A DNA stretch of 64,000 bases from Candidatus Saccharimonadota bacterium (lineage in GTDB: Bacteria; Patescibacteriota; Saccharimonadia; Saccharimonadales; Saccharimonadaceae). Below are positions 7,403-33,063 of this stretch, in pieces. Numbering within the stretch: position 1 is the stretch's first letter; each line of letters starts with the position of its first letter. The DNA lies in assembly GCA_017460625.1 (NCBI GenBank), contig JAFUAT010000010.1, positions 1-64,000 on the forward strand, given 5' to 3'. The position numbers were made by a program, and so were the translations under genes. The notes beneath the pieces were generated by a model. It made no database searches, had not been told where the DNA came from, and saw only the letters and a list, made by a program, of their open reading frames with translations.

Positions 7403-7441
7403 TGGTACACCCGGAGGGACTCGATTCGAAGAACGAGTCCC
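7403..7441 (+). repeat. Left attachment site of element 1 (tRNA-Arg 3' end copy plus inverted T-arm hairpin)
   Basis: The 22-bp tRNA-Arg tail copy (7403-7424) runs into an 8-bp inverted repeat, GGGACTCG (7416-7423) and CGAGTCCC (7434-7441). The 10-base loop holds an inner TTC-GAA-GAA stem with a GAA apex. The same design recurs at 19794 and 33016. Confidence 0.8.
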
Positions 7442-7502
7442 GCTGGATGTTTGATAGTTCTTCTGTTGGTACACCTCAAGTGCGAATGTTTACACAAAAG
7501 AA

Positions 7503-19793: not shown

Positions 19794-19842
19794 TGGTGGT
19801 ACTGGGTGGGTTTGAACCACCGCACCGAAGGTTCGGTGGTTC
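19794..19842 (-). repeat. Orphan copy of the tRNA-Met 3' end with inverted T-arm hairpin
   Basis: 29 bases (19794-19822) match the 3' end of tRNA-Met (19876-19904), and A-runs flank both copies. The copy enters a hairpin: GAACCACCG (19814-19822) and CGGTGGTTC (19834-19842). The 11-base loop contains ACC-GAA-GGT. The unit length, copy start to copy start, is 82 bp. Confidence 0.85.
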
Positions 19843-19875
19843 CCAACTAGTCCATGGTTACTTGAGCCAAAAAAA

Positions 19876-19952
19876 TGGTGGTACTGGGTGGGTTTGAACC
19901 ACCGACCTCGGGCTTATGAGTCCCACGCTCTAACCAACTGAGCTACAGTACC
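19876..19952 (-). tRNA. tRNA-Met (anticodon CAT), elongator type
   Basis: Acceptor GGTACTG pairs with CAGTACC. The anticodon loop CTCATAA reads CAT, and CCA is encoded. The first base pair is G-C, so it is not the initiator (that is at 46510). Because a tRNA-Ile(TAT) exists in this window, an Ile2 identity is less likely. Confidence 0.9.
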
Positions 19953-32903: not shown

Positions 32904-32980
32904 GCGAATGTAGCTCAGTTGTTTAGAGCGCTTCCTTGCCAAGGAAGAGGTCGAGAGTTAGAGTCTCTTCATTCGCACCA
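32904..32980 (+). tRNA. tRNA-Gly (anticodon GCC) with coupled D-loop/T-loop change
   Basis: Acceptor GCGAATG pairs with CATTCGC. The anticodon loop TTGCCAA reads GCC, and CCA is encoded. The D-loop has G18 T19 instead of GG, and the T-loop TTAGAGT has A56 instead of C. The normal G19-C56 tertiary pair could thus become U19-A56. Confidence 0.93.
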
Positions 32981-32986
32981 CACCAT

Positions 32987-33009
32987 AGAGCTCCAGTTAG
33001 CTCTTTTTT
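32987..33009 (+). terminator. Terminator after tRNA-Gly(GCC)
   Basis: AGAGCT-ccagtt-AGCTCT stem with a T run. Confidence 0.75.
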
Positions 33010-33015
33010 GTTTGC

Positions 33016-33063
33016 AACTCTCGGGCTTCGCCAACGAGAGTTAGAGTCTCTTCATTCGCACCA
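33016..33063 (+). repeat. Orphan copy of the tRNA-Gly(GCC) 3' end with inverted T-arm hairpin
   Basis: 29 bases (33035-33063) repeat the tRNA 3' end (32952-32980). They are preceded by AACTCTCG (33016-33023), the inverted form of CGAGAGTT (33035-33042), around an 11-base loop with GGC-TTC-GCC (GAA apex on the other strand). Copy-to-copy distance is 83 bp. Confidence 0.85.

Follow-up and report, generated by a model that had tools for sequence, protein, structure and literature searches.

Short hairpin units that repeat tRNA 3′ ends downstream of tRNA genes in Saccharimonadaceae resemble the rtT repeats of Escherichia coli

Introduction

In a 64,000-nt stretch of a Candidatus Saccharimonadota genome (GCA_017460625.1, contig JAFUAT010000010.1, positions 1 to 64,000; hereafter the window), the 3′ end of a tRNA-Gly gene is found a second time a short distance downstream, behind a small hairpin, and a tRNA-Met gene carries a similar arrangement. 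Integrases leave direct repeats of tRNA 3′ ends, which raises the question of whether such loci are scars of larger elements lost by deletion or units in their own right. The initial annotation of the window had argued for a defined small unit. To our knowledge, the only other case in which tRNA tails are repeated after a tRNA gene is that of the unexplained rtT repeats at E. coli tyrT.

Results

The tRNA-Gly and tRNA-Met units of the window

The features of the three units described here are as follows.

32904..32980, +, intact tRNA-Gly(GCC) with encoded CCA (ARAGORN and Rfam)
32952..32980, +, duplicated 29-nt 3′ end of tRNA-Gly, position ~48 to A76 (repeat search)
32981..33015, +, 35-nt spacer of the tRNA-Gly unit (sequence; homologous spacers in relatives)
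32987-33004, +, terminator-like hairpin AGAGCT..AGCTCT in this spacer (sequence; downstream-strand fold)
33004-33009, +, T6 run after the terminator-like hairpin (sequence)
33016..33023, +, left hairpin arm AACTCTCG, 8 nt (sequence and fold; conserved in relatives)
33024..33034, +, apex GGCTTCGCCAA, 11 nt, with inner stem GGC/GCC (sequence)
33035..33063, +, second copy of the tRNA-Gly 3′ end, including CCA (repeat search)
33035-33042, +, right hairpin arm CGAGAGTT, the first 8 nt of the second copy
19876-19952, -, tRNA-Met(CAT), 13 kb from tRNA-Gly and on the opposite strand
19794..19875, -, 82-bp sister unit after tRNA-Met(CAT) (sequence, repeat search and fold)
19842-19875, -, 34-nt spacer of the tRNA-Met unit
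19834-19841, -, left arm of the tRNA-Met unit
19823-19833, -, apex AACCTTCGGTG of the tRNA-Met unit
19794-19822, -, tRNA 3′-end copy of the tRNA-Met unit
7403..7446, -, orphan unit with a tRNA-Arg-like tail and no tRNA on its own strand

A repeat search confirmed that positions 32952-32980 and 33035-33063 form an exact 29-nt direct repeat with a start-to-start distance of 83 bp, as the initial annotation had described. The left arm AACTCTCG is antisense to the 5′ half of the tRNA-Gly T-arm, and the apex GGCTTCGCCAA closes on a TTC loop, which reads GAA on the other strand. The unit is single, without a tandem partner in the window. At tRNA-Met the direct repeat spans 36 nt at a spacing of 82, with arms AACCACCG/CGGTGGTT, so that the near-equality in size claimed for the two units (83 and 82 bp) also held. 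The orphan unit, with arms GGGACTCG/CGAGTCCC and apex TTCTTCGAAT, ends in CTCCGGGTGTACCA, which it has in common with tRNA-Arg(TCG), and adjoins tRNA-Glu(TTC) on the opposite strand.

When all 45 tRNAs of the window's genome were checked, further units were found at Ile-GAT, Gly-TCC, Gln-TTG, Ser-TGA, Ser-GGA, Glu-CTC, Leu-GAG and Arg-GCG. A phage-type integrase gene was seen to adjoin tRNA-Ser(CGA) in this genome (L209; G000 C10 20156-20905).

A family of units at many tRNA genes of the genus

We surveyed tRNA loci as stretches of DNA around tRNAs. By automatic count, 12/45 tRNA genes of the window's genome carry a unit (including one adjacent-tRNA artefact, Pro-TGG), as do 15/47, 21/47 and 4/25 in three relatives of the same genus, where a few of the matches counted are to Pro or Leu tRNA genes nearby. 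The tRNAs that bear units largely differ between these four genomes, making the distribution patchy; in the genus as a whole, units were found at more than 20 tRNA species and are thus not confined to the window locus. A copy of the gene's own 3′ end lay downstream of 65/220 genus tRNAs and upstream of only 2/220, and the 3′ end of another tRNA, used as a control, was matched in 29/2244 trials, from which we concluded that the tail copies exceed chance. The exact tRNA-Gly hairpin pattern was present in 19/174 genus genomes.

The first copy ended 60-89 bp from the tRNA in 64 of 88 cases, with a mode at 80-84 bp, and when genomes were surveyed one by one, single units mostly lay at 59-93 bp. The pooled histogram over-represents Gly-GCC, since many such loci were fetched by pattern; Gly units without a terminator measure 63 bp. 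The initial annotation had proposed that a defined unit would give a sharp length peak at 80-85 bp; the mode does fall there, but the lengths do not converge on one sharp value. Across the whole survey the tRNA 3′-end copies span 10-34 nt, and they fall into length classes of 18-19, 21-22, 25 and 29-30 nt that correspond to fixed start positions in the T-arm. At L052 and L060, Gly units were observed in which the copies end in an odd acceptor sequence (TACGTTCTGCACCA/TTGCGTTCTGCACCA) that mismatches tRNA-Gly. None of the units was seen to hold a cargo gene.

Shared anatomy, tandem arrays and what they argue against

The short units have a common order: a spacer bearing a terminator or T-run comes first, followed by an arm antisense to the T-arm, a self-pairing apex of 10-12 nt, and the tRNA 3′ end with CCA. 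Unit and tRNA lie on the same strand, and most units sit behind a terminator-like hairpin or T-run. The arms track the sequence of the unit's own adjacent tRNA; in several genomes whose acceptor reads GCGAGCG, for instance, the copy carries CGCTCGC. The apices recur across tRNAs, with GGCTTCGCCAA at the Gly-GCC, Leu-GAG and Arg-GCG units of the window's genome, ACCTTCGGTG at Met and at Gly of relatives, and TTCTTCGAA at Glu, Gln, Asn, Lys and others. Among 18 distinct Gly apices a 3-bp inner stem was kept in 14, compared with 1.6 expected after shuffling, and 16 of their 17 apical loops are GNA or GNNA on the bottom strand.

Spacers, too, are shared between units of different tRNAs. The mean best score for cross-tRNA spacer similarity was 15.4, compared with 9.3 for shuffled sequences and 11.0 for unit-less flanks, and a score of at least 22 was reached in 11/66 cases and by no shuffled sequence or unit-less flank. 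The Ile-GAT unit of the window's genome and a Leu-TAA unit (L221) have most of the spacer and apex in common. The initial annotation had called the tRNA-Gly and tRNA-Met spacers unrelated; these two do look so, but the spacers of other tRNA pairs are clearly related.

Tandem units were detected in relatives (G007, G010, G048, G051 and G094), in arrays of 60 + 60, 63 + 64 (G051, G094), 83 + 83 (G007) and about 82 × 3 bp (G048). Copies within one array are nearly identical, and one intact tRNA remains beside the units. What comes after the last copy resembles the sequence that follows the tRNA in empty relatives, an example being TTTTTTATT (in G056, and after the window copy), and at several loci it resembles the start of the unit.

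This last resemblance is what a tandem duplication would leave, and together with the near-identity of array copies it fits a passive origin, in which replication slippage or unequal crossover doubled the tail and terminator and the quasi-palindrome came from template switching. Such an origin would, however, need specific targeting of tRNA T-arms, and it does not account for inner stems kept by compensatory changes in 14 of 18 apices, or for apices and spacers that recur at different tRNAs. The observation that would refute it, covarying structure in independently arisen units, has already largely been made, and we regard passive duplication as improbable.

The question of deletion scars can be answered more firmly. 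Scars of larger tRNA-integrated elements, that is, attL/attR pairs left by deletion, would match the direct tRNA 3′-end repeats typical of integrases, and a viral contig does bear a 3′ part of tRNA-Gly. Remnants of prophages or integrative and conjugative elements (ICEs) would nevertheless be expected to spread in length and to retain gene remnants between the repeats, and neither was the case: the lengths are narrow, the hairpin is conserved, spacers are shared, tandem arrays occur, and no tRNA 3′-end copy lay more than 200 bp away in the subset of loci examined. As a general explanation, deletion scars are refuted by the length distribution, the apex structure and the shared spacers, and we consider them hardly tenable. 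The preference for a defined small unit in the initial annotation is supported by the lengths, the more than 20 tRNA species and the copy-length classes.

Long units with a four-way-junction domain in other genera

Other genera carry long units of about 160-240 bp. In one genome of the same order (G240) 6/23 tRNAs bear units and in one of the same class (G267) 4/29 do, at 172-240 bp, while no long units were found at tRNAs in G204, G254, G222, G177 and G182. Four G240 units have a multi-stem domain in common, from which we built a covariance model, R1. This model matched 93/393 genomes of the class, with up to 10 or more copies each. It had no match in the window's genus, leaving its short units unmatched, so that only their common anatomy speaks for homology between short and long units.

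The domain is a module of ~95 nt with a four-way junction, placed in the T-loop of a partial tRNA copy. In 86 distinct sequences its pairing was maintained in 97.6% of cells, with a covariation of 0.551 (0.160 when shuffled) and 617 double changes (149 when shuffled); the junction motifs TGAG, CGCAAGG and CGGGG are conserved, and no Rfam family matched the domain (loci L422-L451 and L452-L491). An intact tRNA adjoins 73/86 domains, 58 of which lie downstream of it and 15 upstream, and the full 21-nt tail was present in 30 of the 58. The upstream units are mirror forms, in which the tRNA 5′ part up to T54 is followed by the domain, the T-stem 3′ strand, a T-arm antisense segment and then the complete tRNA. 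In the mirror units of L427, L442, L423, L472, L469, L465 and L447 the module sits in the T-loop (or D-arm), and a new promoter-like stretch lies between the 5′-part copy and the intact tRNA. In L446 (from G782), the D-, anticodon and T-loops of one partial tRNA-Glu copy each hold a module.

Domain copies were 66% identical within one genome and 72% identical for the same tRNA across genomes. Since copies within a genome are not more alike, there is no sign of recent bursts, and within-genome homogenisation, considered in its own right, was not seen.

Folded DNA strand or RNA

Outside one fixed pair, G.T pairs make up 1.5% of the domain, compared with 4.8% in tRNA stems of other genera (p=2e-12). 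This scarcity favours a folded DNA strand, but the one fixed G.U pair and the conserved junction letters are also compatible with RNA, and whether the domain folds as DNA or as RNA remains undecided. For the short units, a G.T-versus-A.C strand test gave 112:44, against 698:589 in shuffles, pointing towards the bottom strand; we did not rely on it, because AT-biased mutation of the G-rich left arms can cause such a bias. The GNA loops of the short Gly apices are on the bottom strand, whereas those of stem P4 in the long domain are on the top one, so that which strand folds likewise stays undecided.

These results bear on the main rival to a cassette mechanism, namely that the units encode a functional structured RNA. 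It would be made in one transcript with the tRNA, or next to it, and be released as a small RNA whose 3′ end looks like that of a tRNA, to act in tRNA processing, on tRNA-binding proteins or in regulation. A precedent is provided by the E. coli repeat, which RefSeq annotates as the ncRNA rttR and which appears as the RtT sRNA in other strains. The strong covariation and conserved junction motifs of the long domain would suit an RNA. The unit lies on the tRNA's strand, and base pairing between its antisense arm and the tRNA is conceivable. Several observations speak against this reading: a terminator-like hairpin or T-run comes before most units, few G.U pairs are seen, and the units are patchily distributed and may occur at any tRNA species. 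A functional RNA remains possible, if unlikely in our estimation.

Search for an enzyme

A second small Xer-like tyrosine recombinase (R, about 280 aa) was found besides a XerD-like protein in 38/174 genus genomes (L204, L205, L206, L207). It was present in 7/19 genomes with Gly units and 31/155 without (p=0.09; p=0.018 once two near-matching genomes were added), and it is absent from the window's genome. This accessory recombinase is only a weak candidate for the enzyme acting on the units; no recombinase is tied to them, and the enzyme is unidentified.

The Gly hairpin was absent from viral contigs, and the long-unit domain had no match in viral contigs, phages or plasmids; a phage or plasmid origin was rejected on these grounds. 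One IMG/VR viral contig (L076) carries, at 1114-1155, a partial tRNA-Gly(GCC) that starts at the anticodon arm and covers the 3′ part; it is likely an att site of a Saccharibacteria phage.

Genes with an RVT_1 domain were found in 5/8 genus genomes checked, two each in G000 (the window's genome), G027 and G089, three in G048 and four in G007. Two of the reverse transcriptases (L298 and L301) were examined by eye and look DGR-like, with an Avd-like neighbour. In a retro-insertion, a reverse transcriptase would have copied the tRNA 3′ end and the cDNA would have entered the tRNA gene by recombination; stops at modified T-arm bases would then account for the classes of copy length. The copies do start at discrete T-arm positions, and the five genomes above would supply the enzyme. 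Two genomes (G136 and G160), however, have Gly units and no RVT_1 gene, the two enzymes examined appear to be of the diversity-generating retroelement type, and spacer and apex are not tRNA sequence. Such enzymes are common but not tied to the units, and we rejected them as the unit maker, leaving retro-insertion very unlikely.

Discussion

The repeat behind tRNA-Gly is part of a family, and our preferred explanation, held tentatively and with somewhat less than even confidence, is that the 83-bp unit is a tRNA-end repeat cassette that duplicates at the T-arm via a folded strand. We infer that an insertion or duplication event with its junction in the T-arm (positions ~48-59) would create the unit and regenerate the tRNA end, leaving one intact tRNA. 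The machinery would probably recognise a folded strand, as in attC-type cassettes, and arrays may grow through further rounds or through recombination between the direct repeats.

A wider reading extends this to the class. Saccharimonadia may carry tRNA-nested elements in which a partial 3′ or 5′ tRNA copy stands beside the intact gene and a four-way-junction module sits in the T-loop, or rarely the D- or anticodon loop. These would have been reduced to 60-90-bp hairpin cassettes in the window's genus, would have rtT as a distant relative, and would represent a so far unrecognised kind of tRNA-gene element that moves or duplicates by way of a folded strand. We put this forward as a possibility about which we remain doubtful. 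The module itself is undescribed and covaries very strongly, and the many natural variants, the sites with and without a unit and the mirror units offer material for asking what these repeats are, DNA or RNA. At the least, tRNA-tail repeats are not always integration scars.

In an incomplete literature search we found no description of the Saccharibacteria units, and among known systems several share part of their anatomy. Arrays of casposons, or those made by Cas1, have random inserts between their repeats, unlike the units, whose inserts are not random. Elements that target tRNAs restore the tRNA 3′ end and displace a copy downstream (attL/attR), as seen here, but the units are 60-90 bp long, geneless and arrayed, with a shared hairpin core, and mirror units in other genera duplicate the tRNA 5′ part. 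IS200/IS605-type or REP elements would call for a Y1 transposase, and PF01797 was found in 0/8 genus genomes. Integron cassettes with attC sites come closer, being tandem units split by imperfect hairpins in which structure is kept over sequence, a property that the units also have; moreover, the best apical loops of the short units are on the strand opposite the gene. The units differ in lacking a cargo gene and an integrase that passes the IntI model (the tyrosine recombinases scored 75-82 bits against a TIGR02249 cut-off of 265), in having no consistent position for GTTRRRY by eye, and in arms that follow the adjacent tRNA.

The closest likeness is to rtT at E. coli tyrT (tyrV), which we took to be the counterpart and then checked in sequence. 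In E. coli K-12, 19-nt tail copies end 178, 356 and 534 bp downstream of tyrV, in three tandem 178-bp copies, in each of which a hairpin-rich insert comes after the T-arm 5′ half; the tail copies start at about position 58 and include CCA, a 10-nt arm is antisense to the tail (GGGGAAGGAT/ATCCTTCCCC), and copy number differs between strains. Both systems thus have downstream repeats, a tail with CCA and an antisense arm, and the 19-nt tail start (~58) is like that of our 18-19-nt class. Two features of rtT are present in the window, an exact 29-nt tRNA 3′ end including CCA at both Gly and Met, and an outer-stem arm antisense to the copied tRNA end (AACTCTCG/CGAGAGTT). Sequence similarity was lacking: Rfam RtT had no match in the window at the gathering threshold, none at E<=10 around the window unit and none at E<=5 at seven long-unit loci; the best match of R1 to the rtT repeats was about 8 bits and did not count as one; and tRNA was the only Rfam family found for the units. 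With the anatomy the same and the sequence not, we classed the units as working like rtT rather than as members of the Rfam family, and there is good support for assigning them to a family of rtT-like tRNA-end units. In size the short units are half of rtT; they occur at more than 20 tRNA species, against the single tRNA gene examined in E. coli, so that in these small genomes an rtT-like anatomy is both frequent and variable.
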